Shown: in pieces, positions 22,082 through 63,287 of the stretch
Layout of the letters: every line of letters starts with the position of its first letter
Position numbering within the stretch: the stretch's first letter is position 1
Origin: Paraburkholderia sp. Tr-20389
GTDB lineage: Bacteria; Pseudomonadota; Gammaproteobacteria; Burkholderiales; Burkholderiaceae
Assembly (NCBI RefSeq): GCF_017104565.1
Contig: NZ_JAAGPD010000031.1
Span: 62,001 to 126,000 of the forward strand
DNA: 64,000 nt
Reading direction: 5' to 3'
The notes under the pieces: model-generated
Database searches by the model: none
What the model saw: the letters and a program-made list of their open reading frames with translations, nothing else
Told to the model about the DNA's origin: nothing
Program-made: the position numbers and the translations under genes

Positions 22082-22129
22082 ATCGTATCATGCAAATCAC
22101 TGATCGATATCGATTCCACTAGATGGAAT
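22082..22129 (-). promoter_or_regulatory. Island operator 1 plus extended -10 (for the gene starting 21981)
   Basis: 17-bp inverted repeat ATTCCACTAGATGGAAT at 22113-22129. On the minus strand, TGATACGAT (extended -10, hexamer 22087-22082) begins exactly 42 nt from the operator start. It precedes the HIBADH-family gene by about 100 nt. Confidence 0.75.
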
Positions 22130-22135
22130 CTAAGG

Positions 22136-23155
22136 TTATTGACCAATGTGTAGGTCGAAATGGGTCGCTGCATGGAACTGGGCCCATTTTTTCGTGTCGT
22201 GAAGGACGTAGTCCTTCACGGATTGGGGCGTGCTGATACCTGGCTCGTACCCGAGCTTGTGCATGTAAGCGACCGTCTCGGGCATACGGGAGACCGCGTT
22301 GATCGCACCATTCAGCGTCTGGACGATGTCCGCCGGAAGCCCTTTTGCCCCTACCAGCACGTAGTACGTGTAGGGATCGACGTTTCCCAGGCCGGGGATC
22401 TTCGCCTCTCCCAGCGCTGGGACGTTGGGCAGTGAAGCGACGCGTCTGTTACCCGTAACGGCCAGGGCGCGCACCATGCCACCCTGAATCGACGGGAGCG
22501 CGCCCTGAATGGGGGTCATCCCGATCTGTACCGATCCGGAGAGCAGTGCCGTGATGATTTCGGCGTCAGCCTTGAAGGGAATGTGCGTCATCCGTATCCC
22601 GGCGAGGCTCGACAGATATTCCATCTGTATATGGCTGGCTGAGCCGATGCCGGAAGACCCGAAGTTCAGCGAGCCGGGGTGAGCCTTGCAGTACTTCACA
22701 AGCTCTGAAATGTCGGCGATGGGAAGGGACGGGCTCGCAACGATCACGCCGGGTGCCTCTCCGACAAGCCCGATAAACGAAAAGTCTTTGACGGGATCGT
22801 AAGGAAGGTCCTTCTGCAGGCCCGGGTACTGGGAAGCGGCGCTGCCGGTGATCAGGAACAGTGTGTATCCATCGGCCGGCGCGGACTTCAGGTTCCGTAT
22901 CGCAATCATCTGATATGCACCGGGACGGTTCTCGATGTAGACGCTCGCCCGCAGGACATCGCTGAGTTTTGACGCGTAGTACCGGGCGATCGTGTCGGTG
23001 GCGCCAGCAGCATTGAATCCGACGAGCAGCCTCACCGGTCGCGCCGGATAGCCGTTTTCTGCGCGCGCGTGTCCCGAAACGAACGCGGCTGCGAAAATCC
23101 ACACGCTTACTCCAAGCAAGGGCCCAAAAGCTCCGAATCTCCAGTGCCTGCGCAT
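22136..23155 (-). CDS. Bug-family (TctC-like) periplasmic solute receptor 1
   Basis: A 339-residue extracytoplasmic receptor of the tripartite tricarboxylate transporter type. Signal peptide with hydrophobic core FGPLLGVSVWIFAAAFVSG, cleavage near GHARA. The mature part has the family pattern YPARPVRLLVGFNAAGATDTIAR, LNFGSSGIGSASHIQMEYL and HIPFKADAEIITALLSG. Family ligands are carboxylates. It is divergent from a LysR gene. The TctAB permease is 14 kb away in the same island and could be its partner. Confidence 0.9.
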   Translation of the reverse strand: MRRHWRFGAFGPLLGVSVWIFAAAFVSGHARAENGYPARPVRLLVGFNAAGATDTIARYYASKLSDVLRASVYIENRPGAYQMIAIRNLKSAPADGYTLFLITGSAASQYPGLQKDLPYDPVKDFSFIGLVGEAPGVIVASPSLPIADISELVKYCKAHPGSLNFGSSGIGSASHIQMEYLSSLAGIRMTHIPFKADAEIITALLSGSVQIGMTPIQGALPSIQGGMVRALAVTGNRRVASLPNVPALGEAKIPGLGNVDPYTYYVLVGAKGLPADIVQTLNGAINAVSRMPETVAYMHKLGYEPGISTPQSVKDYVLHDTKKWAQFHAATHFDLHIGQ

Positions 23156-23226
23156 GTCTTCCTCCCGTCGATGAAATTTCTAACAGTTTGCCCGATCGAT
23201 GCGGTACAGTGTTTAAAATGGTACGA

Positions 23227-23243
23227 GTTCCAATGGTCGAAAC
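23227..23243. promoter_or_regulatory. Island operator 2
   Basis: GTTCCAATGGTCGAAAC matches the island consensus RTTYC-N7-GRAAY. It lies in the divergent region between Bug receptor 1 and the LysR gene. No good -10 is at either standard spacing; CAAACT at 53 nt toward the Bug gene is weak. It may therefore serve as a modified or repressive site. Confidence 0.5.
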
Positions 23244-23387
23244 GCGACATCTATGCGGCGATAACTTCCCTGATTCACGCCGGGTTCGGAATTCGCTGTG
23301 TCCCGGTGATGGGTGATAGCGACAACTCGCCATTGCGATGCAGATGGCGCATTGACCCGGCTGGACGCGCTGAATAAGGCAACGCAA

Positions 23388-24311
23388 ATGGAAATCCGGC
23401 AGCTCCGCTATTTCGTGCAGGTCGTCCAGAGCGGTAGCATGGGGCGCGCTGCCATCGAACTCGATCTCGTCACGTCGGCGCTGAGCCAGCAGGTCAGTCG
23501 ACTGGAAAGCGAGCTTTCCGTGCGACTTCTGAAACGCACCAAGAACGGTGTGCAGCCTACAAGTGCAGGTCTCGCTTTCTGGCACAAGGCGCAACTGATC
23601 CTGCGCATGGCCGACGATGCAGCCAAAGCAGCGCAGTTGGGACGTCTGTCGGGAGAAGCGTCGGTGGGACTCGCGCCGAGCACATCGGGCGTGCTTGCAC
23701 TGCCATTCCTTCGCGAAATGAGGTCCCGGTACCCGGATGTCGGTATTCGCATCGTCGAAAGTCTGTCCGGCAACCTGGGGTCGTTGCTTGCGTCACGGCA
23801 GATCGACGTAGCCATCATCTTTGGCGGTTCAAGGGCGAAGCGTGTCCAGACCGCTCCACTGCTTTCCGAGCGGCTGTATGTGATTTCGGCTGACACGTTG
23901 CCGCTTCCCGCGGATCCGTCTGGATATGACATCGCCGAATTGGCGCAATTTCCGCTAATCCTTCCAAGTAGTCCGCATGGACTGCGGTCACTGGTGGATG
24001 GCGCTTTTTCGCGAGCCGGCTGCGCGATGAGCGTAGCTGCTGAAATAGACGGACTCGCAACGCTGATGGAGGCGGTCAGCAGTGGCATGGGCGTGACGAT
24101 TCAGCCCGCCGCTGCCCTGGCGCGCTGCAAGGGATCAAAGCTGCACACGGTGCCGATTCTTGGAGCCACCCTCAGCCGTATCAATCTCGTCGCGTCTCTG
24201 GCGGATGAGGAGTTGACGCCTGCCGGACTGGCCGCGCGTCTTGTTTTGCGGGAGGTGGCATTGAGGCAGGTCGACGAAGAGCGGTGGCTCGGGGTGACGG
24301 CGTTGATCTGA
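23388..24311 (+). CDS. LysR family regulator
   Basis: A 307-residue LysR protein: HTH MEIRQLRYFVQVVQSGSMGRAA and SALSQQVSRLE, then an effector domain from about residue 90 (GEASVGLAPSTSGVLALPF). The pattern resembles the Nac/CbbR-like group of LysR proteins regulating organic-acid catabolism. It is divergent from Bug receptor 1 and followed by an IclR gene in the same direction, so two regulator types sit side by side. Start taken at the conserved MEIRQLRYF. Confidence 0.88.
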   Translation: MEIRQLRYFVQVVQSGSMGRAAIELDLVTSALSQQVSRLESELSVRLLKRTKNGVQPTSAGLAFWHKAQLILRMADDAAKAAQLGRLSGEASVGLAPSTSGVLALPFLREMRSRYPDVGIRIVESLSGNLGSLLASRQIDVAIIFGGSRAKRVQTAPLLSERLYVISADTLPLPADPSGYDIAELAQFPLILPSSPHGLRSLVDGAFSRAGCAMSVAAEIDGLATLMEAVSSGMGVTIQPAAALARCKGSKLHTVPILGATLSRINLVASLADEELTPAGLAARLVLREVALRQVDEERWLGVTALI

Positions 24312-24403
24312 CCAGAGCGCACGCCCGGTGATGCGTTTTCCAGTCGGAGTGGTTCGGCGATGTGCCGCGCGAGGCTGGAGTCAACCAATTTGAGGGGTTT
24401 TTC

Positions 24404-25216
24404 GTGAAAGAGACCATGCGCTCGGTGCAACGCATCCTGGCAGTGTTCGAAAGTTTCAGCGTCGACAGAACAAGTCTCATGCTGCAGGAGATAGCGGACC
24501 GCATCGCGCTTCCCAAGTCGACCGCGTTCCGTATTGTCCAGAGCCTGGAGAAGGCGGGGTACCTGGTCCGCCTCGAAGATCAACAGTATTGCCTGTCATT
24601 CCAGTTCACCCGCCTGGCGGGCCACGTCCGCAGCACCCTGGGGATTCGTGAGATATCGCGACCGGTCCTTCTTCAGCTTGCGGACCGCACCCGCGAGACG
24701 GCTTCATTGCACACGCTTTCGGGTAGCTACCGGATCTGCATCGACGCGGTGGCAACTGTCGCTGCACCGCTCAGGATGGTTGCCCAACCTGGCGAGCAGG
24801 TACCGATGGTGGCGGGCGCTGCATCGAAGGTCCTGATGGCGTACATGCCGTCGGAGAAGTTGTCCGCGATGGTGGTCGATGTCGCGCGAGTGACTAGAAA
24901 GCCGAGGGCCGAGATCGAGAAGGAGCTGGAGAAGATCCGCTCTCAGGGGTTTGCTGCCTCTCATGGCGAGCGTCTGCTCGGCATTTCAGCGGTCTCTGCG
25001 CCGATTCGCGACTCGGACGACCAGGTCAGATATTGCATCTCGGTTGGCGCTCCCAGCGTTCGGATGAGAATCAACGAGGATGAAATCGTACGTAGCCTCC
25101 TGATTGCAGCAGCCGATATCTCGCGCCAGTTCGGCGCCGCAACGGTGGATTTTCATGAGGGGACCCAGTTTCTCGCGAAAGATGCAGGAACGATTACCCA
25201 TCGCATCAGCGGTTGA
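24404..25216 (+). CDS. IclR family regulator 1
   Basis: About 270 residues. Winged HTH at residues about 5-65 (VQRILAVFESFSVDRTSLML, PKSTAFRIVQSLEKAGYLVR) and an IclR effector domain ending in the GERLLGISAVSAPIRDSDDQV region. It is nearly identical in its DNA-binding part to the second IclR gene at 39197: about 12 differences in the first 83 residues. The GTG at 24404 has GAGGGG upstream; ATG four codons later is the alternative. Candidate regulator of the 17-bp island operators. The effector is unknown. Confidence 0.88.
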   Translation: MKETMRSVQRILAVFESFSVDRTSLMLQEIADRIALPKSTAFRIVQSLEKAGYLVRLEDQQYCLSFQFTRLAGHVRSTLGIREISRPVLLQLADRTRETASLHTLSGSYRICIDAVATVAAPLRMVAQPGEQVPMVAGAASKVLMAYMPSEKLSAMVVDVARVTRKPRAEIEKELEKIRSQGFAASHGERLLGISAVSAPIRDSDDQVRYCISVGAPSVRMRINEDEIVRSLLIAAADISRQFGAATVDFHEGTQFLAKDAGTITHRISG

Positions 25217-25239: not shown

Positions 25240-25287
25240 GTTTCGAGCAGTGGAACCAATGCTGTTCAGTAGAACGCGTGATAACAT
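25240..25287 (+). promoter_or_regulatory. Island operator 3 plus extended -10 (for the gene starting 25417)
   Basis: GTTTCGAGCAGTGGAAC at 25240-25256, followed 42 nt from its start by TAACAT (25282-25287) within an extended -10 TGATAACAT. It directly precedes the multifunctional crotonase/dehydrogenase gene. Confidence 0.8.
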
Positions 25288-25416: not shown

Positions 25417-27528
25417 ATGTCGGAAGAAAGGTTAGTTGGATATAAGGTCGTCGATGGCGTAGCGGTGATAACGCTTAGCAATCCACCGGTGAACGCGCTT
25501 GCGCCAGGGATGCGGGAGAGCCTGATTGAATGCCTTGAGCAGGCGAATGCGGACCACAGGGTGAAGGGCGTCGTTGTGACGGGAGGCGGGGGCAATTTCG
25601 TGGCGGGCGCCGATATCCGGCAATTCGGCAAAGAGCGCAAGGTTTCATCGTCGGTCAGCACTGCAGCGATCGACGCCAGTCATAAGCCGGTCGTGGCGGC
25701 CATCCGCGGCTACGCTTTGGGTGCAGGTCTGGAACATGCGCTCGCATGCCACTACCGATTCGCGTCGTCCGACGCAAAACTGGGTTTGCCTGAGGTCAAG
25801 ATCGGCATCATTCCTGCCGGAGGAGGCACGCAACGCCTTACGCGGCTTGTCGGGCCGAAAGCGGCCATCGATATCATCGTTAGCGGGCGCCACGTGTCTG
25901 CAAAAAACGCTCTGGAATTGGGTCTGATCGACCGCGTGGTGGCCGACGAACTCGTCGTCGCGGAAGCACTGGACTTTGTAAGAAGTCTTCCGCGGGGTGA
26001 AGGCGTGCGACGCGTTCGCGACATGAACGACCGGATCGAGCATGCGAAAGCCAATCCGCAGGAGTGGACACCCGCGCGTGACGAAGCCGCGAGGAAGGCG
26101 CGATTCGTCAAGGCGCCGCACAGCGCGTTGGCCTGTATCGAGATGGCGGTGAACGGATCGTTCGAGGAAGGCATTGCGCTTGAACAGTCGCTTTTTGCGG
26201 AACTCGAAAGTTCCGATGAGGCAAAGGCGCTCCGCTACGCATTTTTCGCGGAGCGCGAAGCTGCGAAGATTCCGGGCAAGCCGGATCACTACAAGCCCGA
26301 GGCGGTTCGCAGCGCAGCTGTGATTGGAGCAGGAACGATGGGTGGCGGGATTGCCATCTGTTTCGCCGACGCCCATGTTCCAGTGAAGGTGCTCGAAGCA
26401 AGTCAGGAGGGCCTCGATCGCGGAATGCAGAAAATCAGGGACACTTATGCGACGAGGGTGAGCCGAGGCAGTCTGACGCAGGGTGAGATGGACGAGAGCC
26501 TGACGTACATCCAGCCCGTGATGGACTATGAACAGATCGGTGACGCTGATGTGGTGATTGAGGCGATTTTCGAGCGCATTGACCTCAAGAAGGAGGTTTT
26601 CGGAAAAATCGATAGCGTAATGAAGGAGGGGGCGCTGTTGCTGACCAACTCCTCGGCGATCGATATCGATACGATGGCCAACGTGACGCGCCGGCCAGCC
26701 GACGTGGCCGGCGCGCACTTCTTCGCTCCGGCAAACGTCATGAAGCTCTGTGAGGTGGTGCGAGGCACGAGTAGCTCTGTCGAGACCATCCTGCGTACCG
26801 CACGGCTCGGACGCGACCTGAACAAGGTAAGCGTCGTTGCGGGATCGTGCGACGGTTTTGCAGCAAACCGAAGTCGTGCGCCGCTGGTCACGGAGGCGAT
26901 GCTTCTGCTCGAAGAGGGTGCTCGACCAGACCGGATCGATCGCGTCATGAAGGCGTTTGGCTATCCGATGGGACCGTTCGCGGTCAGCGACCTGTCAGGG
27001 CTCGATGTCAGCTACGACACCCGGAAACGGCGGGCGGCTGCGGATCCAACCTATCGCAAGCTGCACGTGCCTGACCGGATGGTTGAACTTGGCCGCAAAG
27101 GGCAGAAAAACGGCACCGGCTGGTACCGATACAACCCTGGCGACCGAAAGCCGATCGTGGACCCCGAGGTCGACGCGATCATTGCAGGCGTGGCACGCGA
27201 ACTCGGCGTCGAACAGCGAGAGTTCTCTGACGACGAGATTCTGCAGCGCCTGCTCTTCGCGTCAGTCAACGAGGTCTGCAAGATTCTCGAGGATGGGAAA
27301 GCGTACCGCGCAAGCGACGTCGACGTGATGTGGTTGTACGGCTTCGGATTTCCGCGGCACCGGGGCGGCCTGATGTATTGGGCGGACACCGTTGGGGCAG
27401 GCAAGGTCGGCCAGCAGGTCCAGGCATGGCACGAGCAGTTCGGAAAACGCTGGAAGCCGGGCCGCCTCTTGCTCGAAGCTGCGGCTGCAGGATCTCAACT
27501 GCGCGACCTGCGCGCGCCGGGCATCTGA
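25417..27528 (+). CDS. Enoyl-CoA hydratase / 3-hydroxyacyl-CoA dehydrogenase fusion (FadB/FadJ-like)
   Basis: Hydration of enoyl-CoA and NAD-dependent oxidation of the 3-hydroxyacyl-CoA product on one 703-residue chain. N-terminal crotonase domain with both catalytic glutamates (E106 in LGAGLEHA, E126 in LPEVKIG) and oxyanion loop FVAGADI. The dehydrogenase starts near residue 300 with VIGAGTMGGGIA (302-311), the catalytic His is in GAHFFAPANVMKLCEVVRG, and two C-terminal helical HAD domains follow (GFGFPRHRGGLMYW). Start chosen at MSEERLVGYK. It is a monocistronic unit with its own operator and terminator region, and probably acts on the island's acyl-CoA intermediate. Confidence 0.9.
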   Translation: MSEERLVGYKVVDGVAVITLSNPPVNALAPGMRESLIECLEQANADHRVKGVVVTGGGGNFVAGADIRQFGKERKVSSSVSTAAIDASHKPVVAAIRGYALGAGLEHALACHYRFASSDAKLGLPEVKIGIIPAGGGTQRLTRLVGPKAAIDIIVSGRHVSAKNALELGLIDRVVADELVVAEALDFVRSLPRGEGVRRVRDMNDRIEHAKANPQEWTPARDEAARKARFVKAPHSALACIEMAVNGSFEEGIALEQSLFAELESSDEAKALRYAFFAEREAAKIPGKPDHYKPEAVRSAAVIGAGTMGGGIAICFADAHVPVKVLEASQEGLDRGMQKIRDTYATRVSRGSLTQGEMDESLTYIQPVMDYEQIGDADVVIEAIFERIDLKKEVFGKIDSVMKEGALLLTNSSAIDIDTMANVTRRPADVAGAHFFAPANVMKLCEVVRGTSSSVETILRTARLGRDLNKVSVVAGSCDGFAANRSRAPLVTEAMLLLEEGARPDRIDRVMKAFGYPMGPFAVSDLSGLDVSYDTRKRRAAADPTYRKLHVPDRMVELGRKGQKNGTGWYRYNPGDRKPIVDPEVDAIIAGVARELGVEQREFSDDEILQRLLFASVNEVCKILEDGKAYRASDVDVMWLYGFGFPRHRGGLMYWADTVGAGKVGQQVQAWHEQFGKRWKPGRLLLEAAAAGSQLRDLRAPGI

Positions 27529-27842: not shown

Positions 27843-28601
27843 TCAGGCGTTGTTTTCCTCGCGTGGGTACTGGAGGACCAGCGCCTCGAGCCCCTTGTCG
27901 CCGGATCGAATCGTAAATTTTTCTTCGTTCGGCTCGACGACAACCATTGACCAGAGCGGAAGTTCTTCGTCGTTGTGCAGGAGGGTGCCGTTGCCGACGA
28001 ACACGTAGTAACCGGCAGCGGCCTTCGGATCCGGACCTTCGACGCTCTGACCAGCTCCGAGTCGAACGATCTGCGCGTGCATGCCGTCCGAGTCATCCTT
28101 CAGAAGCGTTTCCCAGACCGGCTCGGCCCGTTCCTTCAGCACCGGCTCGATGGAGAAGCGCACGCGTTCCGAGGTCAGATGGCGGCGCTTGCTCGGCTTG
28201 AGCCGGTCCCGATACCCTTCCTTGTTCAGATACACGGGTTCCGAATTGCCGGTGTACATGCGCATTGCGACAAACGACAGACCTTGCGGACCTGCGACGA
28301 TCGGGCCGTAAGCGGTGTGATGGTCCTTGAACTGCACTGTCAGGGGCTCGAGTGGCTGTTGCTTGTTCCCAAGCGTCCCGGAGCCGGCGATGAACATCTG
28401 GAACATCGTCACGCCGTGAAAATGCGGAACGACCGACTCGTGCGGTTGCAGTTCCGACATGGTGGCCTGCGGCCCCGAACCCGTGGCGTTCGAGCTGCGA
28501 GGGCCAAAAAACACCGTTCCCCAATGCTGGTTTCCGGTGCCCGGAGAAACTACGACGTCTCTCTTGGAAAGAGCGTCGGCGCCGCTTCGTGTGTAGATCA
28601 T
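27843..28601 (-). CDS. Bicupin protein of unknown function
   Basis: 252 residues with two cupin-like halves. The first half has the metal-binding pattern SVVPHFHGVTMFQMFIAGSGTLG (His-x-His). The second (about 165-245: AGYYVFVGNGTLLHNDEELP) lacks the His pair. Metal-dependent oxygenase or isomerase activity is possible but not shown. It has its own promoter from island operator 4 and a terminator, and is divergent from the acyl-CoA synthetase operon. Confidence 0.7.
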   Translation of the reverse strand: MIYTRSGADALSKRDVVVSPGTGNQHWGTVFFGPRSSNATGSGPQATMSELQPHESVVPHFHGVTMFQMFIAGSGTLGNKQQPLEPLTVQFKDHHTAYGPIVAGPQGLSFVAMRMYTGNSEPVYLNKEGYRDRLKPSKRRHLTSERVRFSIEPVLKERAEPVWETLLKDDSDGMHAQIVRLGAGQSVEGPDPKAAAGYYVFVGNGTLLHNDEELPLWSMVVVEPNEEKFTIRSGDKGLEALVLQYPREENNA

Positions 28602-28686: not shown

Positions 28687-28734
28687 ATCCTAGCATGAGT
28701 TTTAAAGAACAGTATCGATTCCGATCAGTGAAAC
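28687..28734 (-). promoter_or_regulatory. Island operator 4 plus extended -10 (for the cupin gene)
   Basis: ATTCCGATCAGTGAAAC at 28718-28734. Reading the minus strand, TGCTAGGAT (hexamer TAGGAT, 28692-28687) begins 42 nt from the operator start, the same geometry as operators 1, 3 and 6. Confidence 0.8.
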
Positions 28735-28784: not shown

Positions 28785-28845
28785 GTTTCATTCATCGGAA
28801 CGCATTTCATTTATCGTTGACGCCGGTCGATCCAGGGTCTACAGT
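28785..28845 (+). promoter_or_regulatory. Island operator 5 plus -35/-10 promoter (for the acyl-CoA synthetase operon)
   Basis: GTTTCATTCATCGGAAC at 28785-28801, then TTGACG (28817-28822), a 17-nt spacer and TACAGT (28840-28845). The operator starts 55 nt before the -10. The expected start site lies about 90 nt before the ATG at 28945. Confidence 0.8.
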
Positions 28846-28944: not shown

Positions 28945-31065
28945 ATGAACGATTTCAAATATCTGCTCGAACCGCGGTCGATCGCGGTTGTCGGGGTTTC
29001 GGACGAAGCGGGCCGCCCGGGTTCGCAAGCTGTCCGTGCGCTTGTCGGGAACGGTTACCAGGGACACATCTATCCAGTCAATCCAAAGTACGCGGAGTTC
29101 GACGGCCTCAAGTGCTACGGCGCGGTGAGCGACATCGATGCGCCGATCGACCTGGTCGTGATCGGCGTACCTGCGAAAGGCGTTATCCCGGTGCTGAAAG
29201 CATGTGCGGAGAAGTCGGTTCCATATGTCGTGGTTCTGAGCGGGGGCTTTCGCGAGAGCGGGCCGGAAGGCGTCGAGCGCGAGCGCGAGATGCTGGAGAT
29301 CGCGAAGGCGGCCGGAATTCGCATCATCGGCCCGAACTGTCTGGGCTTCGCAAACATACACTCGCAGGTGTTCGCTGCATTCGGGAGCATCACGCGGGAG
29401 CCCAAGCTGAAGAAGGGGGGCGTTTCCCTCGTCACCCAGAGTGGTGGCTTCGGCTACAGTCTGGCGCTTGCCTGTGCCGAGGCGGACATCGGCTTTCGCC
29501 ATGTGATTGCCACCGGCAATGAGACGGACGTCGACACCGTACAACTGATCGATGCGTTGCTGAACGACACGGAGACCCAGATCATCCTCGCGTACATCGA
29601 AGGTACGAAGGATGGCCGGTCGCTGCTCGATGTCGGCAGGCGCGCACTCGCGGCTGGCAAGCCGGTTCTGCTCTGGAAGGGCGGCGTCACTGAAGAGGGT
29701 GCGCGGGCTGCCGCTTCGCATACCGCAAGTATGACCGGAAGCTACGACTTCTATCGTGCGCTCTTCAAGCAGACCGGTATCGTCGAAGTCAGGGAGATTC
29801 ACGAGGCTGTCGACTTCCTCAAGGCTTTCGCGGCGAAGAAATATCCGGCCAACGGCGGAATGGCGGTCATGGGGGTTTCCGGTGGCTCGGCCATCGTATT
29901 TGCTGATGCAGGTGAACCCGAAGGGCTCCATCTCGCGAATCTTGCGGAAGAGACGGAACGGCTGCTCGCGGAGGTGGTGCCGAATATCGGCGCGGTGCAC
30001 AATCCGATCGACCTGACCGCAGGCTATTTTTCTGCGAGCAATCGCGACAAGCTGCGCACGGCTATCGAGGTCACACTTGCCGACCCCGGAGTGGATGCCC
30101 TTTGCGTGAACCTGGCAACGACGGGCAGCGCTGGCAGTACCGCTGCTGCCGAAGTGATCGCCGATGTGGCAAAGGGGTCGGCCAAGCCTGTCTGCGTATT
30201 CTCCTCGGCTCCCCGTGATCAGATCGCAGATGCCAGCAGATTGCTCGATGCTGCAGCAGTGCCTCTCTTCCCATCGCCATCCCGCGCGGCAAAAGCGCTG
30301 GCGATGCTTGCGCGCTACGGTGCCGCACGAAGCCTGGTGGGAACTTCCGAATCTGCAGATTCCCGCCCCGCCCAGTCATCGAAAGACGTCCTCTCGGGCT
30401 GGGCCGGCAAACTGTCCGAAGCACAGTCCAAGGACATCCTGTCGCGCGTAGGTATTCCTGTCACGCGCGATGTGCTGGTGACCGCTGCCGACGGCAGCCT
30501 GCCGGATCAGTTGTCATGGCCTGTCGTCGTGAAGATCGTATCGCCCGATATCGCTCACAAGACGGAAGTTGGCGGCGTCAAGGTCGGAATCCGTGACCCG
30601 AAGGAACTTGAGTCGGCCATCGCCGAAGTGCGCGCGAACGCGCAGTCTCATGTCCCCGACGCGCGAATCGAAGGCGTGATGGTCTCCCAGATGGTCAAGG
30701 ACGGGTTCGAGCTGATCGCGGGTGTCGTGAACGATGAGGTGTTCGGGCCCGTGGTGGTGGTCGGAGCAGGTGGGATTTACGCTGAACTGATGCGCGACTC
30801 CTCCTGCCGCCTCGCGCCCTTCGATGAAACGGTCGCGCGGCAGATGCTCGACGAACTGCGGTGTCGTCCGATTCTGGACGGGGCTCGAGGTAAGCCTGCG
30901 CTCGACGTCGATGCCACGTCGAAAGCGCTTGCGGCGCTCTCCCGGTTCGCATGGGAGCATCGCGACGGCGTATCCGAGATCGATGTCAACCCGCTTTTCG
31001 TTCTGCCAGACGGCGTCCTGGCGGCCGACGCGCTGATCGTGCCCGTGTCGTTTCCGGGACATTGA
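28945..31065 (+). CDS. NDP-forming acyl-CoA synthetase (fused alpha-beta)
   Basis: Makes an acyl-CoA from the free acid, CoA and a nucleoside triphosphate through a phospho-histidine. 706 residues: CoA-binding domain (RSIAVVGVSDEAGRPGSQAV, residues 11-30), succinyl-CoA-ligase-like domains (SLVTQSGGFGYSLALA), phospho-accepting His259 in ASHTASMTGSYDFYRALF, and a C-terminal ATP-grasp half from about 490 (VVVKIVSPDIAHKTEVGGVKVG). The ATG at 28945 begins the conserved NDFKYLLEPRSIAVVG. It heads a long rightward gene string and is probably the activating enzyme of the pathway. Confidence 0.9.
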   Translation: MNDFKYLLEPRSIAVVGVSDEAGRPGSQAVRALVGNGYQGHIYPVNPKYAEFDGLKCYGAVSDIDAPIDLVVIGVPAKGVIPVLKACAEKSVPYVVVLSGGFRESGPEGVEREREMLEIAKAAGIRIIGPNCLGFANIHSQVFAAFGSITREPKLKKGGVSLVTQSGGFGYSLALACAEADIGFRHVIATGNETDVDTVQLIDALLNDTETQIILAYIEGTKDGRSLLDVGRRALAAGKPVLLWKGGVTEEGARAAASHTASMTGSYDFYRALFKQTGIVEVREIHEAVDFLKAFAAKKYPANGGMAVMGVSGGSAIVFADAGEPEGLHLANLAEETERLLAEVVPNIGAVHNPIDLTAGYFSASNRDKLRTAIEVTLADPGVDALCVNLATTGSAGSTAAAEVIADVAKGSAKPVCVFSSAPRDQIADASRLLDAAAVPLFPSPSRAAKALAMLARYGAARSLVGTSESADSRPAQSSKDVLSGWAGKLSEAQSKDILSRVGIPVTRDVLVTAADGSLPDQLSWPVVVKIVSPDIAHKTEVGGVKVGIRDPKELESAIAEVRANAQSHVPDARIEGVMVSQMVKDGFELIAGVVNDEVFGPVVVVGAGGIYAELMRDSSCRLAPFDETVARQMLDELRCRPILDGARGKPALDVDATSKALAALSRFAWEHRDGVSEIDVNPLFVLPDGVLAADALIVPVSFPGH

Positions 31066-31079
31066 AAGGATGGCCCATT

Positions 31080-32144: not shown

Positions 32145-32170
32145 ATACGCAAAAAAACTCAGGAGTCCGC

Positions 32171-32899: not shown

Positions 32900-32949
32900 G
32901 GGGGCCGGCGACTGGCAGAACATGATCACGAATTTAAACGGAGACGGAC

Positions 32950-33738: not shown

Positions 33739-33820
33739 AGCGCCTCGAGCATCCGGTACGGCCAGCCTCCGCGCGACTCGCAGCGAGGCTGAAAGCAGAC
33801 CTCGACCCTCAGATCAGACC

Positions 33821-34078
33821 ATGCAACAGATCGTGCGCTCGTTGAGATGGAACATCGACAAGTGGTTCGGACCGGCGTGCCGCGACCGCATCATCGTGAC
33901 GCGGGCCCAGGGTGCGAGATGGGGCGCGAGATATGTTTGCGTTCGTGAAAAAGATTCGGGTAACGAAATAGCGCTCTTCCTGTTTCGACATATGGACGGC
34001 TCATGGAGCGTTTTTCCGCCCGACCGGATCAGGCCGTCGTTCACCGTGCAATTGCGGGAATCCGGTGACAGCGACTAG
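33821..34078 (+). CDS. Small conserved-type hypothetical protein (85 aa)
   Basis: Compact basic-then-mixed protein starting MQQIVRSLRWNIDKWFGPAC, with a C-terminal segment IALFLFRHMDGSWSVFPPD that resembles small Burkholderia proteins of unknown function. No signal peptide or membrane segment. It lies between crotonase B and tcuA on the same strand. The weak ribosome binding site keeps confidence moderate. Confidence 0.5.
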   Translation: MQQIVRSLRWNIDKWFGPACRDRIIVTRAQGARWGARYVCVREKDSGNEIALFLFRHMDGSWSVFPPDRIRPSFTVQLRESGDSD

Positions 34079-49925: not shown

Positions 49926-49985
49926 GACGCACGATGCACACTGCTTCCCGGTTTCAGTGGAATCTGTCGCAAAGGTTGGTACAGC

Positions 49986-52810: not shown

Positions 52811-52907
52811 GAGGAGACTTGCGCCGCATTGGCGTAATTGACTTAACTATCGCGCAACTCAGCCTCCATATCCTGCTGTCGCGCGAAACTGAAGTGAGGA
52901 GACGCAA

Positions 52908-53882: not shown

Positions 53883-53902
53883 TCGCGTAAAGGTTAGGGG
53901 CA

Positions 53903-55657: not shown

Positions 55658-57084
55658 AAAAACTTGACCGGTTTTACATCGACGGGAAATGGACGAAGCC
55701 TGCAGGTACGGACCTCTTCGAACTGATCAATCCCGCAACCGAAGAAGCATACGGACACGTCACCCTCGGAAACGCCGAGGATGTCGACAGGGCAGTTGTT
55801 GCAGCCCGGCGAGCATTCGCATCCTTCTCGCAATTGAAGAAAGAATGGCGGATGGAAATCCTGAGCAGCATTGTTGAGTCGCTGCTGCGCCGGGAGTCGG
55901 ACCTGATGGATGCGGTAACCGAAGAGATGGGCGCTCCCAGCAGTTTGAAGGGGCAGACGGGCACCGCGGTTCAGGCATTCCGACAGGCGATCGTCACGCT
56001 GCGCGACTACTCTTTCGAGCATATGCTCGGCGACAACGTGGTTCGCCGCGAGCCCATCGGTGTCTGTGGCCTCATCTCCGCATGGAATTGGCCTTTGCAG
56101 CTGATGTGCCAGAAGCTGGCATCTGCATTCGCAGCAGGTTGTACGGTCGTTGCAAAGCCGAGCGAATTCACTCCGCTCAGTGCTGTTGTGCTCGCAGAGG
56201 CGCTTGACACTGCGGGATTGCCGCCGGGCGTGTTCAATCTGGTGAATGGAGATGGTCCGACCGTTGGCGAGGCTATTTCACGTCATCCCGGCATTGATAT
56301 GGTTTCGTTCACCGGGTCCACTCGTGCCGGCGTGATGGTGGCTCAGGCTGCGGCCGGCACCGTGAAGCGTGTGTGCCAGGAGCTAGGTGGGAAGTCCGCA
56401 AACATCATTCTGCCCGACGCGGATCTTGCGGCCGCTGCGCGATTTAATGTTTCTCGAGGCTTCTCGAATACAGGGCAGTCCTGCCATTCGCCAACTCGCA
56501 TGCTTGTATCGGAAAACCAGGCAGACGAACTGATTGCGCTGATCCGGGAGGAAGCTCAGTCGGTGAAGGTAGGCGACCCGAAGAATCCCAGGACAACTAT
56601 TGGACCTGTTGTCAATCGGGCACAGTTCGAACGGGTTCAGCACTTTATCGAGCGCGGTATCGAAGAAGGTGCGAAGGTGGTCACGGGAGGCCCGGGTCGC
56701 CCAGAGGACATCAAGAAGGGATTCTTCATTCGCCCAACAGTATTCTCGGACGTCCGCCCAGACATGTCGATTGCACAGGAGGAAATCTTCGGCCCCGTAC
56801 TTTCCGTCATCACGTATCGCGATATCGATGATGCTGTCGAAATTGCCAACGGAACCCGCTATGGTCTGGGCGGATATATCTTCTCTTCGAACGTGGAGAA
56901 GGCTCGCCAGGTCGCTGAGCGCATGCAGGCCGGCCGCATTTTCCTCAACGGCGCGCCATCGAACAACGTTGCGCCGATGGGTGGCTACAAGCAGTCCGGC
57001 AATGGCCGGGAGATGGGGGTCTTCGGACTTGAAGAATATCTCGAAGTAAAGGCGATGCTCGGGTTCGCGAGCTCGGCGGGATAA
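55654..57084 (+). CDS. NAD-dependent aldehyde dehydrogenase
   Basis: 476 residues. Catalytic Cys in GFSNTGQSCHSPTRMLV, Glu in CQELGGKSANII, VVAKPSEFTPLSAVVLAEAL in the cofactor region. The overlap with the upstream dehydrogenase suggests that it oxidises the aldehyde or semialdehyde that enzyme forms. Family level only; CoA-acylating methylmalonate-semialdehyde type is unlikely because the classical Glu is present. Last gene before a strong terminator. Confidence 0.9.
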   Translation: MKKLDRFYIDGKWTKPAGTDLFELINPATEEAYGHVTLGNAEDVDRAVVAARRAFASFSQLKKEWRMEILSSIVESLLRRESDLMDAVTEEMGAPSSLKGQTGTAVQAFRQAIVTLRDYSFEHMLGDNVVRREPIGVCGLISAWNWPLQLMCQKLASAFAAGCTVVAKPSEFTPLSAVVLAEALDTAGLPPGVFNLVNGDGPTVGEAISRHPGIDMVSFTGSTRAGVMVAQAAAGTVKRVCQELGGKSANIILPDADLAAAARFNVSRGFSNTGQSCHSPTRMLVSENQADELIALIREEAQSVKVGDPKNPRTTIGPVVNRAQFERVQHFIERGIEEGAKVVTGGPGRPEDIKKGFFIRPTVFSDVRPDMSIAQEEIFGPVLSVITYRDIDDAVEIANGTRYGLGGYIFSSNVEKARQVAERMQAGRIFLNGAPSNNVAPMGGYKQSGNGREMGVFGLEEYLEVKAMLGFASSAG

Positions 57085-57352: not shown

Positions 57353-58420
57353 TCAGGACTTTGCGATGGTTACAGGAAGCTGGGGCAGATCAAGACGATA
57401 GATTCGCGCTGCAGTATCTGAGAACAGGTTCCGGCGTTCGGCGGCGGTAAGATCGGCAGCGATTTTCTTGTATGCGTTCCAGATCACGCTGTAGCTGCAC
57501 ATCGCCTTGTCGACCGGAAAATTGCTTTCAAACATGCAGCGATCGGGACCGAAAAGATCAATGCACAGGCGCATGTAAGGCTTCCACGCTGCGACGAGAT
57601 CGTCGGACGATGGCGGCAACGTCCTTTCGTTGAATCCAAACCCGGCGTATCGCATGGCGAGCCCGCCCAGCTTCATCACTGTATTTGGGAGAGCAGCAAG
57701 TTCCTCGACTCGCGAACGCCATTCCGCGAAGACCTCCGTCCGCTTGTCTTTGTACGGGCCGATACCCAGTGGGCCACCAGTATGATTGATGACCACAGTT
57801 AAATCCGGGTGGTCACGGCAAAGCTGGGCGACATCTCTGAGTTGCGTGAAGAATGCCCATAGGTCTAACGTCATCCCCATTTTATGGATGCAGGAGACAG
57901 CCGCTCGCGTTGGTGCGGCCCTCAGTAAGCCCTCAGGGTTGGCCACTGGCAGGATCTCGCGGCTTTCATGCCATACGACCGTTGGTCGTATTCCCCTGAA
58001 CCGGCCAACCCCGGCCTCGATGTGCGCCTCGAGCACCGGCTGGACGTCGTCACCAAGCAGGATGTCCACAGTGCCTACGATTCCCGCGCAAATGTGAAGC
58101 GACGTGTCCGATCTATTCCTTCCGGTTGCGAGTTGGCGGACGAACTCCGTCTCCCCAACCGGCTTCAGTGATTCCGGGCCGTGCTCTCGATACATGCTTC
58201 TGCACTGTACATGTACGGTCGAAATGACGTTATGACCAGATGAAAAATCAGCGATGGCTCGGTCTGCCAGGTATCGATCGCCGGGATGGTCCCACAAGTG
58301 GTGGTGGGGATCCACAATCAACAGTTCTGGTTCGAGAATTTCTTCGGAGCGCAATGCCAGCCAGTCACTTCGTACCGTCGGGTGTGCCTTGAGTACAGCT
58401 TCAATTGATTCGTCAGACAT
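57353..58420 (-). CDS. Amidohydrolase-2 family metal-dependent hydrolase B
   Basis: 355 residues, paralogue of the hydrolase at 49986: both share LEPELLIVDPHHH-x-W-D-type N-termini and FGPDRCMFESNFPVDK. Metal ligands HHH in DPHHHLWD (37-44). Start at MSDESIEAVL (58420); an in-frame extension further upstream is non-coding in style. Lactone hydrolysis or decarboxylation by family. It lies downstream of an MHS transporter on the same strand, 118 nt apart. Confidence 0.87.
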   Translation of the reverse strand: MSDESIEAVLKAHPTVRSDWLALRSEEILEPELLIVDPHHHLWDHPGDRYLADRAIADFSSGHNVISTVHVQCRSMYREHGPESLKPVGETEFVRQLATGRNRSDTSLHICAGIVGTVDILLGDDVQPVLEAHIEAGVGRFRGIRPTVVWHESREILPVANPEGLLRAAPTRAAVSCIHKMGMTLDLWAFFTQLRDVAQLCRDHPDLTVVINHTGGPLGIGPYKDKRTEVFAEWRSRVEELAALPNTVMKLGGLAMRYAGFGFNERTLPPSSDDLVAAWKPYMRLCIDLFGPDRCMFESNFPVDKAMCSYSVIWNAYKKIAADLTAAERRNLFSDTAARIYRLDLPQLPVTIAKS

Positions 58421-58538
58421 GTGTGATATGCGATGACCTGGAAAGCGAGAAGGGCAACCGTGTTCACGGTTGCCCCGAGGTGACAAGAGCCGGCTTACGG
58501 ATACGTCGGCGCTTGTGGTGATCCTGATATCCGGAAAT

Positions 58539-59873
58539 TCAGTGCGACGTGTTGATCTGTCGATTCTCGGACGGCTGAGCCTCGAACTTTCGCACCAGCG
58601 AGTAGTGCGGTTTGCTTGCCATGATGGCAATTAAACTGACTATGCCAATAATCATGGTGTACCCGAAAAACACCCGAATCCCTCCGTGCTGATATGCGAT
58701 TAGCGCAGTTGCAATGATTGGCAACGGGCCTCCGAAGATGGCTCCAGACATCTGGTAACCGGCCGAGATCCCCGTGTACCGTACCGAGGTCGGGAACATG
58801 TCAGAAAACAGCGATGCCTGAGAGCTGTGACATGCTGCATGACCGATGCCAAGAACCCAGACATAACCGGCAACCATCCCTGCATAGGATTGTGCTTCCA
58901 CCGCGAGACAGAACGGGATAGCACCCGCGAGAAGCGCACAGATACCCCAGACGAAAACTTTTCGGCGACCGATTGCGTCGGACAGCATTCCGTAGATCGG
59001 GATCGTAACCATCTCAACCGCTGCACCAATCGAGACTGCGATGAGCATATCGGCTTGGGGCATCTTGAGCCTTGAGACCGCGTACGACACCATGGCGACG
59101 GCGCATGTGTAGAAAAACGTGTTTGGCGCCGCTTGCGCGAACAGGACGCCGAGCAGCTGACGCGGATACTCGCGCAGTACGGTCATCACCGGCAATTTTT
59201 CGATGTTGCCAGACGCTTTCGCTTTCACAAACGCAGGAGACTCAGCCACCCGGTTGCGGATGTAGATGCCAACCAACAGCATGGCGGCGCTCAGGATAAA
59301 GGGTACGCGCCAGCCCCATGCCAACAACGCCTGCTTGTCGAGAGCCGTCATGGCAAGGAAGGTAAGATTCCCTAACAGGAGACCGAAAAAGGCAGCGCTC
59401 TGCGGAACGCTGCCAAAGAGGCCACGACGTTTTTCGTCAGCGTGCTCGACGACCGCCACGATCGCGCCACCGTATTCCGCTCCCGCCGACAGGCCCTGTA
59501 CGATGCGCAGCAGCACGAGCAGGACAGCGCCGATGTAGCCTGCGCTTTCGTATGTCGGCAACAGCCCGATCAGGGTCGTCGCCGCCCCCATGATAATGAA
59601 GCTCCACAGCAACGTCGTCTTGCGTCCAATCTTGTCGCCGAGGTGCCCTGCAATGACACCGCCGATAGGGCGCACCAGCCATGCGGTTGCAAACGTCATG
59701 AAGCCGAAGATCGTTCCCATCGTGGGATCGACGGCAGGAAAAAACAACTTGTTCAGAAACAGCGCCGAAACCGTGCCGAAAATGAAAAAGTCGTACCACT
59801 CAATAGTGGATCCAATGAAAGTCGACGCAATGATGAGTCGCTTTTGACGTGCAGTCGATGCAGGGCTTGCCAT
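58539..59873 (-). CDS. MHS family MFS metabolite:proton symporter
   Basis: 444 residues, 12 helices. Signature IASTFIGSTIEWYDFFIFG, GHLGDKIGRKTTLLWSFIIMG and VQGLSAGAEYGGAIVAVVEHA are typical of the shikimate/citrate/proline-betaine (ShiA, ProP) branch. A third potential importer of organic anions in the island. Divergent from the epimerase gene. Start at MASPASTARQ with GGAG upstream. Confidence 0.9.
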   Translation of the reverse strand: MASPASTARQKRLIIASTFIGSTIEWYDFFIFGTVSALFLNKLFFPAVDPTMGTIFGFMTFATAWLVRPIGGVIAGHLGDKIGRKTTLLWSFIIMGAATTLIGLLPTYESAGYIGAVLLVLLRIVQGLSAGAEYGGAIVAVVEHADEKRRGLFGSVPQSAAFFGLLLGNLTFLAMTALDKQALLAWGWRVPFILSAAMLLVGIYIRNRVAESPAFVKAKASGNIEKLPVMTVLREYPRQLLGVLFAQAAPNTFFYTCAVAMVSYAVSRLKMPQADMLIAVSIGAAVEMVTIPIYGMLSDAIGRRKVFVWGICALLAGAIPFCLAVEAQSYAGMVAGYVWVLGIGHAACHSSQASLFSDMFPTSVRYTGISAGYQMSGAIFGGPLPIIATALIAYQHGGIRVFFGYTMIIGIVSLIAIMASKPHYSLVRKFEAQPSENRQINTSH

Positions 59874-59976: not shown

Positions 59977-60023
59977 GTTCCGATCATCGAAACTTATGAG
60001 TTCGGGCGGTGATCCCGCATAAT
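59977..60023 (+). promoter_or_regulatory. Island operator 9 plus -10 (for the epimerase gene)
   Basis: GTTCCGATCATCGAAAC at 59977-59993 and CATAAT (60018-60023) 41 nt from its start. Divergent region between the MHS transporter and the epimerase. Confidence 0.75.
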
Positions 60024-60093
60024 GTTTGAAAGGACGAGTTCGCGCCGAGTACGGGATGTTGCAGGTCTTTCGGTCAATCAATCAGGGAAAGTC

Positions 60094-61062
60094 ATGAAGG
60101 TTCTTCTTACCGGCGGTGCGGGATTTCTCGGTACTTACATCTTTGCTGAGCTCGAAAGGAATGGTCATCACGTTTGTGTATATGACCGGGCCGATATCCC
60201 GCCGGATCTTGCATCGATTTCCCCAAATCTCTCGAGGTCGCTTGTCTTCGGTGAAATCTCGGATTCGGAGAACTTCGCTGCCGTCTGCAGCGACGTCCAG
60301 CCAGAAGTAATCGTGCACGCTGCCGCACGCGTTGGATTTGAGCCGTCGATCGAAGATCCGGCCAGTTTTTACCAGACCAACGTTATGGGGTTTGTCAACG
60401 TCTGTGAGGCCGCCCGGAAAGTCGGGGTTCGAAAAGTTTTGCTAATCTCCAGCAACACTGCCTGCCACGCAGGGGTTGGGTCTATCCAGAAGGAGAGTGA
60501 TCCCGCATTTTCGATCTTTAAGGCCAATCCGAGCGCTCACTACGGCACAACGAAAATGATCACCGAGGCGATTGGCATGTCCTATGGGCAATTTCACGGA
60601 ATCGAGTTTCTCGCACTGCGCATCGCGGCCGTCTACGGGTTCGGAATGCGAACACCGCTTTATATCAAGCCGATGGTTGAAAACGCAGTTGATGGTAAGA
60701 AGACTGTTTTCAGGACCGGTGGCCGGATGAAGCGTGACCTCACGCACGTACTGGACGTCAGTCGCGCTGTCGTGAAAGCTGTCGAGGTGCAACGACCGGG
60801 TGCTGACCAGTCGCACATAATCAACGTTGCAGCGGGCAACTTGGTCGCTCCTTCCGAGATTGCCCGAATTGTTCGCGAGACGGTTCCCGGCGCGGATATC
60901 GCGATCGGCGATGAGTTGACAGATCTCGAAGAAGAAAACCTCAAGACGCGGGTGCCATTGGACATCTCGATGGCTCGCTCTGTTCTCGACTGGACGCCCA
61001 TCTTTCAGATCGAGGACGGAATTTCGGAGTATGTAGAAAGGTACCGGATATTCAAGGGATAA
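60094..61062 (+). CDS. NAD-dependent epimerase/dehydratase (extended SDR)
   Basis: 322 residues. Cofactor motif VLLTGGAGFLGTYIFAELE near the N-terminus, VIVHAAARVGFEPS, active site with YGTTK providing Tyr and Lys (SAHYGTTKMITEAIG). Acts on a sugar nucleotide or on a small hydroxyacid/lactone as in uronate dehydrogenase relatives; the substrate cannot be told. Start at MKVLLTGGAG (60094). Monocistronic with island operator 9 and a shared terminator. Confidence 0.87.
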   Translation: MKVLLTGGAGFLGTYIFAELERNGHHVCVYDRADIPPDLASISPNLSRSLVFGEISDSENFAAVCSDVQPEVIVHAAARVGFEPSIEDPASFYQTNVMGFVNVCEAARKVGVRKVLLISSNTACHAGVGSIQKESDPAFSIFKANPSAHYGTTKMITEAIGMSYGQFHGIEFLALRIAAVYGFGMRTPLYIKPMVENAVDGKKTVFRTGGRMKRDLTHVLDVSRAVVKAVEVQRPGADQSHIINVAAGNLVAPSEIARIVRETVPGADIAIGDELTDLEEENLKTRVPLDISMARSVLDWTPIFQIEDGISEYVERYRIFKG

Positions 61063-61158: not shown

Positions 61159-62340
61159 TTAGAATTTGTGACGGATGCCCAGCCGAACGGCGACTTGGCG
61201 ATTGGAAGTCGAAGGCGTCAACTGGTTGATCGACGCAACAGCCGTTCGCCCGGTTGAATCGGTTCCTCGCGCCTCTTGGAACGTTGCGACTGTGTACACG
61301 TCGGTTCGCTTGGAAAGAAAATAATCCAGACCGGCCGACCCTTGATTGTAGATAGCCGATCCGTGACCCGATGCGCCGCTGTTGTGCGTGTACACATAAG
61401 CCAGGCCTGCAACGAGCGCAGGTGAGATCTGATACTTGAAGTTTGCTTCGGCAATGTTGAATGTTGCAGTACCCGCGATTCCACCGGCGGGTACCGGTCC
61501 GGAAGTCCTGTCACCAAGACTCATGAACTTGGTGTTTGAATAGGTAAGTCCGAACGTCGCAGCACCGAACGTGTACGCTCCACCTGCGCCGATAACCTGC
61601 AAGGTGTGAGCAGAGGCATATCCCGAGATAACCGGTGAAGACCCAAAGTTGGAACCGGGCACACCGCCGGTAGTGGCTGCCGGTGATCCGCCACTGCCAT
61701 AGAATGAAACATTAGGATTGCGGACATTAAGGTAACCAACTCCCGCGAGCAACGGACCATTGGCGTAGTTGGCTCCCAGCGACCAGATCTGATTGCGGCT
61801 GATGTTACCCGCCACGCCCCCCAGGGAGTACGCGCCGCCAAACGTGAACCCCCCGATAGCCTTGCTGGTGTACTTGATCTCGTTGTTAACGCGGTTTGTA
61901 TTATTAAAATTGTCGAGGTCCGAGGGGTGAGCGGCCATGTATCCGCCCCACTGATCGCCAACTTCAAACTGGCCCAGATTGTCGACGACGAGGTCGTATT
62001 GTCGACCGAGTGTTACTGTGCCGTATGGGCTCGTCATCCCAACGAACGCCTGCCGGCCAAAAATGAGGCCACCTTGGCCCATCTTGCCGTTGTTCACATC
62101 GAACCCGCTTTCTATCGTGAAGATCGCGGCAAGTCCACCTCCAAGGTCTTCACGACCTTTCAAACCCCAACGACTGCCGTTGAGGACGCCGCTCGATAGG
62201 TTGTAGAGACGCTCGCCACCAGCGTTGCTGTTGTAATTGACCCCCTCATCGATGATGCCGTAGAGCGTCACATTGCTCTGAGAAAAGGCTGCGCAACTGA
62301 ATGTGCTGACGGCAGCAAGTGCGAACAACTGCTTTTTCAT
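61159..62340 (-). CDS. Gram-negative porin (OmpC/Burkholderia type)
   Basis: 393-residue outer-membrane trimeric porin. Signal peptide MKKQLFALAAVSTFSCAAFS; N-terminal strand SNVTLYGIIDEGVNYNS and SRWGLKGREDLGGGLAAIF; C-terminal Phe in VRLGIRHKF for BAM recognition. Porins of this group often accompany catabolic clusters and broaden uptake of acidic substrates. Controlled by island operator 10. Confidence 0.93.
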   Translation of the reverse strand: MKKQLFALAAVSTFSCAAFSQSNVTLYGIIDEGVNYNSNAGGERLYNLSSGVLNGSRWGLKGREDLGGGLAAIFTIESGFDVNNGKMGQGGLIFGRQAFVGMTSPYGTVTLGRQYDLVVDNLGQFEVGDQWGGYMAAHPSDLDNFNNTNRVNNEIKYTSKAIGGFTFGGAYSLGGVAGNISRNQIWSLGANYANGPLLAGVGYLNVRNPNVSFYGSGGSPAATTGGVPGSNFGSSPVISGYASAHTLQVIGAGGAYTFGAATFGLTYSNTKFMSLGDRTSGPVPAGGIAGTATFNIAEANFKYQISPALVAGLAYVYTHNSGASGHGSAIYNQGSAGLDYFLSKRTDVYTVATFQEARGTDSTGRTAVASINQLTPSTSNRQVAVRLGIRHKF

Positions 62341-62476
62341 TACCTGTCTCCGATGTCTTGTACTTGATAGATGTAGATCTTCAACTAATCAACAGCGTGT
62401 CCTTAACGTTGCCTGTGAGGCTGCTGGTGCCATCTATGAAACTAGATGCTGGTCAAACAGGAACCACGCTCATAGA

Positions 62477-62535
62477 AATCTATTCGCGGCTTCGCCGACA
62501 GTCAAATAAATGGAAATGGTTCCGATAAGTGAAAC
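62477..62535 (-). promoter_or_regulatory. Island operator 10 plus -35/-10 promoter (porin)
   Basis: GTTCCGATAAGTGAAAC at 62519-62535; on the minus strand TTGACT (62505-62500), 17-nt spacer and TAGATT (62482-62477), with the -10 beginning 53 nt from the operator start. The remaining bases of the 428-bp gap (62341-62768) hold no gene. Confidence 0.78.
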
Positions 62536-62768
62536 CTGGTGCGGGGTCTTATATTGGATCTTCCCCACAGGCGAGAGAACAGCCGAACCTCAAGAACGCT
62601 TCATGAAGGTCGATACGGTGCGCCCCAAAGTGTCTTGCTCAGTTCGCTACCATATCCAAATCGTTACTTTCTGCGTTTTCGCATTTGCTTCGAGCCTTCA
62701 GACATGCGGGGTGGACTCTTTAAGCTTGCCGACAGGGACCGCTTTGAAAGTAAGGGCGGGGTTGCGAT

Positions 62769-63101
62769 CTACGATGCACCTTTCTGGTTGCAGACGTCAT
62801 CTAACCAACCAATTGAACGGGCCACTTCACACGCAATCAGAGTTGCGCCGAAGCCGATCATGAGTGCCGCTCGCAAAGTGTCTTTGGTTGCGCCATGATC
62901 CAACGCACGACGCGCGTGAATCTTGAAAGGATCTTCGTGCCCCAATACGGCGAACTGGGCCACAAGTACGATCTCGCGCACGCGTGCATCGAGAGCAGGG
63001 GATGCCAAGATTGTCGCGCGCATCCTGTCATAGTGCAGCATGGTTTCTGGAGCCGCCTGCGACAATCGTAGGGAAGATGGTGTTCTGGATTTCGTCGACA
63101 T
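62769..63101 (-). CDS. Carboxymuconolactone-decarboxylase-like small protein
   Basis: 110-residue helical protein. RVREIVLVAQFAVLGHEDPFKIHARRALDHG and a following helix pair match the CMD/AhpD-like fold, with the His in KIHARRAL. The CxxC pair of AhpD-type members is missing (GHEDPFKIH). Could be a decarboxylase or an orphan subunit; function unknown. No clear ribosome site upstream, hence moderate confidence, but operator 11 lies 170 nt upstream. Confidence 0.6.
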   Translation of the reverse strand: MSTKSRTPSSLRLSQAAPETMLHYDRMRATILASPALDARVREIVLVAQFAVLGHEDPFKIHARRALDHGATKDTLRAALMIGFGATLIACEVARSIGWLDDVCNQKGAS

Positions 63102-63228
63102 GGAAGGTTTTTCGGAGGAGTCGTTGCTGGAAGAGATAGGTGACTGCGGTCGTGCACTGCTCGTGTGGCTCGGTTAGCAACAAGAGATTGCGACAGCTTT
63201 GAATAGTGGCCGACTTCCACAGGACGAC

Positions 63229-63287
63229 ACACTATGTCGGCTCTTAAGATCGCGCAAAAAATAGAACATTATTCCGCTTATTGAAAC
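63229..63287 (-). promoter_or_regulatory. Island operator 11 plus promoter (for the CMD-like gene)
   Basis: ATTCCGCTTATTGAAAC at 63271-63287; on the minus strand TTGCGC, 17-nt spacer, then TAGTGT (63234-63229) beginning 53 nt from the operator start, as at the porin. The 310-bp region 63102-63411 holds no gene. Confidence 0.7.

Follow-up and report, generated by a model that had tools for sequence, protein, structure and literature searches.

A predicted IclR regulon of tandem palindromes in a catabolic gene island of Paraburkholderia sp. Tr-20389

In this work we analysed eleven copies of a 17-bp palindrome, RTTYC-N7-GRAAY, in a 64,000-nt stretch of the genome of Paraburkholderia sp. Tr-20389 (contig NZ_JAAGPD010000031.1, positions 62,001 to 126,000; hereafter the window), where they accompany an island of genes for uptake and catabolism. 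That the eleven sites are real and regulatory we regard as virtually certain, and judging from sequence they are very probably the strong halves of tandem operators, predicted to be read by the IclR-family regulators that the island itself encodes. New here is the layout, in which a weaker second palindrome often lies exactly 19 bp nearer to the gene and is followed by one of two fixed promoter registers.

Results

All eleven sites listed in an earlier note on this DNA were recovered, each at its position and each fitting the pattern, compared with an expectation of 0.70 sites (standard deviation 0.92, maximum 4) from 100 dinucleotide shuffles of the window. They are confined to its right part. 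A symmetrised matrix built from them returned the same eleven sites as the top 11 matches in the window, and in a leave-one-out test every omitted site stayed within this top 11. Although the pattern had left the N7 spacer free, the spacer is constrained, with T at position 8 in 19 of the 22 symmetrised half-sites; the flanking columns carry little information. The reported absence of the motif from the left 20 kb held for the pattern, which has zero matches there, but the matrix finds one weak match at 18302. Intergenic placement of the sites is borne out when start codons are set by recognisable N-termini (dehydrogenase 21981, acyl-CoA ligase 28945, thiolase 45880). The island, previously given as 43 kb, measures about 42 kb as a gene block (20674 to 62535), and sites precede most of its operons, as had been stated for nearly all transcription units, but the site at 63271 has no recognisable gene behind it.

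The two IclR-family proteins of the island, IclR1 and IclR2, score above the curated cut-offs of both domains (PF09339: 50.9 and 56.4 bits, cut-off 22; PF01614: 105.4 and 119 bits, cut-off 24) and are 62% identical, with near-identical recognition regions. In the work of Suvorova and Gelfand (2021, PMC8222616), the GTT-11-AAC subgroup of IclR group-1 operators is described as a 17-bp palindrome with the consensus GTTYCRYW3RYGRAAC, located before iclR and neighbouring genes, and tandem group-1 sites, found in 94 of 181 orthologous groups, have centres 18–22 nt apart, mainly 19–21. With the class as described there, the sites of the island have in common the 17-bp length, the GTTYC...GRAAC arms, the spacing of tandem centres of about 19 bp and the position before iclR or its neighbours; at positions 2–6 and 12–16 of the consensus, all 11 window sites show zero mismatches. 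Unlike in this description, many of the second palindromes here are weak; most of them are found towards the gene, and they merge with promoter elements in two fixed registers. No paper on this regulon was recognised among the main texts of the open PMC literature, although the supplement of PMC8222616 may already list it.

At the protein level, IclR2 has an IclR-family sequence relative in the PDB, TtgV of Pseudomonas putida (2xrn, 2xro; E 6.9e-15), for which a DNA complex and the control of efflux pumps are described in PMC8222616, whereas the genes of the island serve uptake and catabolism. PcaR/PcaU/PobR (TIGR02431) has the lowest E-value among the NCBIfam models matched by both proteins; membership in this subfamily was rejected, since the scores of 112.4 and 119.9 bits are far under the curated cut-off of 284.75. 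No beta-ketoadipate pathway enzyme was the best match of any of the 30 open reading frames scanned.

IclR1-like proteins (E of 1e-50 or better) occur in 10 of 299 sampled family genomes, the own genome included. In 80 kb each of genomes G219, G275 (P. phenoliruptrix HU18) and G114 (Trinickia symbiotica), all 11, 11 and 10 sites, respectively, are located within the island or slightly beyond its porin gene. A scan of named genomes gave 37 IclR loci of 40–94% identity from Paraburkholderia, Caballeronia, Cupriavidus, Trinickia, Pseudomonas lini, Comamonadaceae and others. Sites above 13 bits are present in all 37 loci, 108 in total against a mean of 4.0 and a largest value of 25 for 100 column-permuted matrices, and in 22 of these loci at least one site is no more than 1.5 kb away from iclR. 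Even in the distant homologues L119, L120, L122 and L123, whose neighbourhoods are otherwise different, the site centre lies 97–127 bp from the matched iclR start. Genomes without this IclR hold 0–6 strict sites (most 0–4), compared with 1–11 in carriers. The earlier note had proposed an IclR pair as reader. Both paralogues are indeed in the island, but a pair is not needed everywhere: three Cupriavidus-group genomes (G178, G281 and G296) each yielded a single IclR match with an E-value no higher than 1e-50, which in G296 extends over residues 17–155 alone, and a single IclR therefore seems to be enough.

The tandem arrangement became apparent from an offset scan of 120 sites, comprising 12 from the window (one of them the weak match at 18302) and the 108 from the 37 loci. 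Of the 240 flanks, 48 have a second palindrome with a score above 0 at offset 19, whereas none has one at offsets 10–18 or 20–29; in most cases this partner is weak. Among 149 sites, 56 are flanked by a recognised gene on just one side, and at 46 of them the partner towards the gene has the higher score (Wilcoxon p 4e-6, the orthologues among them not being independent). Beyond the palindromes, predicted sigma-70 promoter elements recur at fixed distances. In register A, an extended -10 element, TGnTAnnAT, stands at offset 40 (49 of its 64 occurrences in 298 flanks), while in register B a -35 element, TTGAC, stands at offsets 31–33 and overlaps the weak palindrome (40 of 75 occurrences). One or the other is present in at least one orientation at 101 of the 149 sites, and the full register at 9 of the 11 window sites. 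TGnTAnnAT occurs 9 times on both strands of the window, 5 times in register where 0.005 would be expected; TTGAC is in register 5 times against 0.09 expected, one of these belonging to the orphan site 63271. Register A serves the FadB, cupin, SDR2, rubredoxin and dehydrogenase promoters, for which no -35 consensus was found, and register B those of the ligase, MmgE, MFS, porin and others. Across genera the sites are kept at the same promoters while their letters drift.

The island is also found on large plasmids, namely pENH92 of Cupriavidus necator NH9 (L127) and pNK81 of Caballeronia NK8 (L128), where 5 of 6 and 8 of 10 sites, respectively, are in register. Taking these plasmid copies together with the presence of the IclR in just 10 of 299 genomes, the distribution of the island appears sporadic and possibly mobile.

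Over the whole genome (8,997,065 bases, 129 contigs), the loose pattern gives 95 matches, 11 in the island region and 84 elsewhere. The outside number is about what the shuffle rate predicts (approximately 98 per 9 Mb, hand calculation); the reversed-pattern control gives 36, below these 84. The refined pattern RTTYCRHTNADYGRAAY is found without mismatch at 11 places, 8 of them in the island, and with at most one mismatch at 44, of which 11 are in the island and 33 elsewhere, against 3 in the reversed control. Chance therefore need not account for all outside matches, and the scatter at equal density through unrelated genes, named beforehand as evidence contrary to a regulon, was not seen in these genome-wide pattern scans.

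Outside the island, just two spots hold at least two refined sites close together, both beside other IclR genes. At C77:147442-147622, three refined sites of ATTCCATTCAATGGAAT type immediately precede an IclR-family gene that runs divergently from ABC-transporter-like genes (the latter named by eye); this locus (L088, C77:147442-148395) is probably a separate small IclR regulon. At C19:842141-842204 (L089), two refined sites separate an acyl-CoA ligase/crotonase-like operon from an MFS-like gene, and an IclR gene is adjacent (neighbours named by eye, the IclR match excepted); this is a second look-alike regulon. In addition, a lone refined site at C115:25606 ends 130 bp before another IclR helix-turn-helix, and one at C32:333446 is near a weak helix-turn-helix match, yet not before it. 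Altogether, 4 of the 33 outside refined sites lie shortly before an IclR gene, where about 0.1 would be expected (hand calculation). It should be noted that ATTTCATTGAACGGAAT-type site pairs, about 145 bp apart (e.g. G032:C3:232297 and 232442), recur in many listed genomes of genus g12; none of the listed g12 genomes with such pairs matched the IclR of the island in the 299-genome search.

The genes under the sites, about 34 in number (Table 1), comprise TctABC uptake, TcuA/TcuB, the ligase, crotonases, FadB-like and thiolase-like proteins, rubredoxin, a reductase, dehydrogenases, amidohydrolases, transporters and a porin. Judging from these families, the island seems to degrade an organic acid by a CoA-dependent route; they do not point to a particular substrate, and nothing specific came out of PDB searches with the cupin-like, lactonase-like, amidohydrolase and crotonase proteins. 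The pairing of a Zn-ribbon/OB-fold protein with a thiolase is known from side-chain aldolase/thiolase systems. A core of ligase, reductase, two crotonases, FadB-like, thiolase-like, rubredoxin, lactonase-like, CapA-like and SDR genes recurs with little change all the way from Pseudomonas lini to Comamonadaceae, though some loci are without some members. The window contains no tRNA gene. G219 has an outer site (C16:21133) that stands before a gene 33% like MFS2; the window end (63271-64000) may therefore have lost or replaced the target of its last site.

Table 1. Palindrome sites and genes of the island, in window coordinates (sites are the strong palindromes; weak, the weak partner palindrome)
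Feature	Position	Strand	Details
Site 22113	22113..22129	-	register A toward dehydrogenase (start ~21981); weak 22094-22110; extended -10 22082-22090
Site 23227	23227..23243	.	between divergent TctC1 and LysR-IclR1; neither register recognised
Site 25240	25240..25256	+	register A for FadB-like gene; weak 25259-25275; extended -10 25279-25287
Site 28718	28718..28734	-	register A for cupin-like gene; weak 28699-28715; extended -10 28687-28695
Site 28785	28785..28801	+	register B for run from ligase to TctA-IclR2 (ligase start ~28945); weak 28804-28820; -35 28817-28822
Site 42036	42036..42052	+	between CapA and SDR2, register A toward SDR2; weak 42055-42071; extended -10 42075-42083
Site 45980	45980..45996	+	between thiolase and rubredoxin, register A toward rubredoxin; weak 45999-46015; extended -10 46018-46026
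Site 51269	51269..51285	+	register B for MmgE-TctC2-HIBDH-ALDH; weak 51288-51304; -35 51300-51305
Site 59977	59977..59993	-	between MFS2 and SDR3, register B toward MFS2; weak 59958-59974; -35 59958-59963
Site 62519	62519..62535	-	register B for porin gene; weak 62500-62516; -35 62500-62505
Site 63271	63271..63287	.	no recognisable downstream gene; TTGACA 63304-63309, no well-spaced -10
HIBDH_A	20674..21981	-	3-hydroxyisobutyrate-dehydrogenase-like
TctC1	22136..23155	-	tripartite tricarboxylate transporter receptor
LysR	23313..24311	+	LysR-family regulator; missing from several related islands
IclR1	24362..25216	+	IclR family, HTH_IclR and IclR_C
FadB-like	25417..27528	+	hydratase/dehydrogenase; start by N-terminus MSEERLVG
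Cupin-like	27843..28601	-	conserved protein, cupin-like by sequence; no Pfam match; low-confidence mostly-strand model, mean pLDDT 56.6
Acyl-CoA ligase	28945..31065	+	NDP-forming
Rest of ligase run	30951..39004	+	ferredoxin/FAD reductase, two crotonases, small ORF (open reading frame), TcuA, TcuB, TctB, TctA
Small ORF in ligase run	33674-34078	+	no family match
IclR2	39197..39949	+	IclR family; last gene of same-strand run starting with ligase
SDR1 and CapA	39974..41922	-	CapA/PGA_cap-like protein
SDR2	42130..43005	+
Lactonase-like, Zn-ribbon/OB-fold-like, thiolase-like	43049..45880	-	lactonase-like protein a beta-propeller
Zn-ribbon/OB-fold-like gene	44304-44705	-	beside thiolase-like gene; so annotated in C. 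necator copy
Rubredoxin, MFS1, HIBDH_B, amidohydrolase 1	46080..51068	+
MmgE/PrpD, TctC2, HIBDH_C, aldehyde dehydrogenase	51434..57084	+
Amidohydrolase 2 and MFS2	57353..59873	-	MFS2 named by eye from translation
SDR3	60022..61062	+	epimerase family
Porin	61159..62340	-	named by eye from translation

Discussion

We predict with high confidence that the sites are read by the IclR proteins of the island. The regulon reading of the earlier note draws support from the thinness of the scatter elsewhere in the genome, from arms, length and spacing of the operator class, from the presence of sites in 37 of 37 loci of the IclR clade and from their persistence where LysR is missing. Several observations weigh against this assignment. 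The full consensus GTTYCRYW3RYGRAAC, as given in PMC8222616, is exact in 0 of 11 sites, each having 1–4 mismatches at positions 1/17 and 7–11, although such a consensus is the summary of a logo, so that mismatches neither prove nor exclude class membership. No site lies within 1.5 kb of iclR in 15 of the 37 named loci and in 8 of the 15 loci L041–L055. By the strict pattern, G281 and G296 have 1 site each (4 and 8 by the matrix in the 60 kb read), and the matrix cut-off of 13 bits was our own choice. Neither register is present at 48 of the 149 sites, in the window 23227 fits neither and 63271 is without a gene, and many of the counts stem from orthologous promoters, which are not independent.

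In the mechanism that we consider most likely, IclR1 and IclR2 would bind as dimers of dimers (tetramers), with one dimer per palindrome. Assuming the usual distance from the -10 element to the start, the palindrome pair of register A would cover approximately -54 to -19 of an extended -10 promoter (strong palindrome -54 to -38, weak -35 to -19), and that of register B approximately -67 to -32, overlapping the -35 element (strong -67 to -51, weak -48 to -32). Bound IclR would then shut out RNA polymerase. A ligand from the pathway, probably its substrate or an intermediate linked to CoA, would free the DNA of the protein, and the genes for uptake, activation and breakdown would be switched on together. 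Since the inner palindrome overlaps RNA polymerase contacts in both registers, repression is favoured over activation, and we hold it to be the somewhat likelier mode. Each iclR gene belongs to a same-strand run with a site ahead of it: the run behind 28785 ends with IclR2, and that behind 23227 consists of LysR and then IclR1, which comes immediately after the site in islands without LysR. Both genes are therefore probably self-regulated, and feedback is likely.

IclR-family activators exist, PcaU and PobR among them, and a possible though less likely variant of the same model, and not an exclusive alternative to it, is that the strong palindrome near -46 or -59 helps bound IclR to recruit RNA polymerase to register A promoters. 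The missing -35 consensus of these promoters fits such a role, and their tight operator–promoter spacing would suit an activator as well. However, under activation the weak palindrome would sit between the -35 and -10 positions in register A, or on a good TTGAC -35 element in register B, and the registers differ by about 13 bp, which is not a whole number of helical turns. More speculatively, and in our view rather doubtful, one IclR pair might drive the entire island by means of a single asymmetric tandem operator set into promoters of two designs, with operon classes responding differently and the paralogues dividing the task. If this were true, the strong outer palindrome would act as anchor, while the weak inner one would be shared with the -35 element or with the stretch before the extended -10; for example, one class could be repressed and the other activated, or the classes could respond to different ligand levels.

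Reading of the sites by the LysR-type regulator of the island, instead of its IclR proteins, is improbable. The TTYC-N7-GRAA geometry would also fit the T-N11-A LysR box as generally formulated, site 23227 lies between lysR and the divergent gene, and LysR homologues stand beside IclR in Pseudomonas lini (62%, L106/L107) and Cupriavidus D384 (53%, L124/G178), a point that weighs against the IclR assignment. Yet G275 and G114, which keep 11 and 10 sites, lack any LysR homologue between TctC1 and iclR1, the stretches fetched from G030, G139 and G296 yielded none, and the one homologue seen in G281 (35%) lies outside the core; sites remain in all of these. Conversely, among the 28 loci fetched from a longer list of LysR homologues away from this IclR (56–61% identity), a site lies within 1.5 kb in 1, against 22 of the 37 IclR loci. 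The 19-bp tandem spacing, moreover, is that published for IclR in PMC8222616. A LysR regulon, which would call for lysR wherever sites occur, was rejected on gene absence and on the LysR homologues elsewhere. Finally, a dispersed repeat or structural element without regulatory function, which many similar copies in one region could suggest, is hardly credible in view of the low-information flanks, the intergenic and promoter-locked placement and the conservation at the same promoters across genera with drifting letters, and was rejected on the promoter register.

Conclusions

On the IclR reading, the island clearly illustrates a familiar type of gene control, and its layout is of unusual regularity. 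The analysis assigns a likely regulator to an uncharacterised catabolic island of sporadic occurrence, present in Pseudomonas and in Burkholderiales, where chromosomes as well as large plasmids carry it, and exact coordinates of predicted operators and promoters are now given for it. With its tandem of strong and weak palindromes in two registers, it offers a small natural set of variants for studying the encounter of IclR proteins with RNA polymerase.

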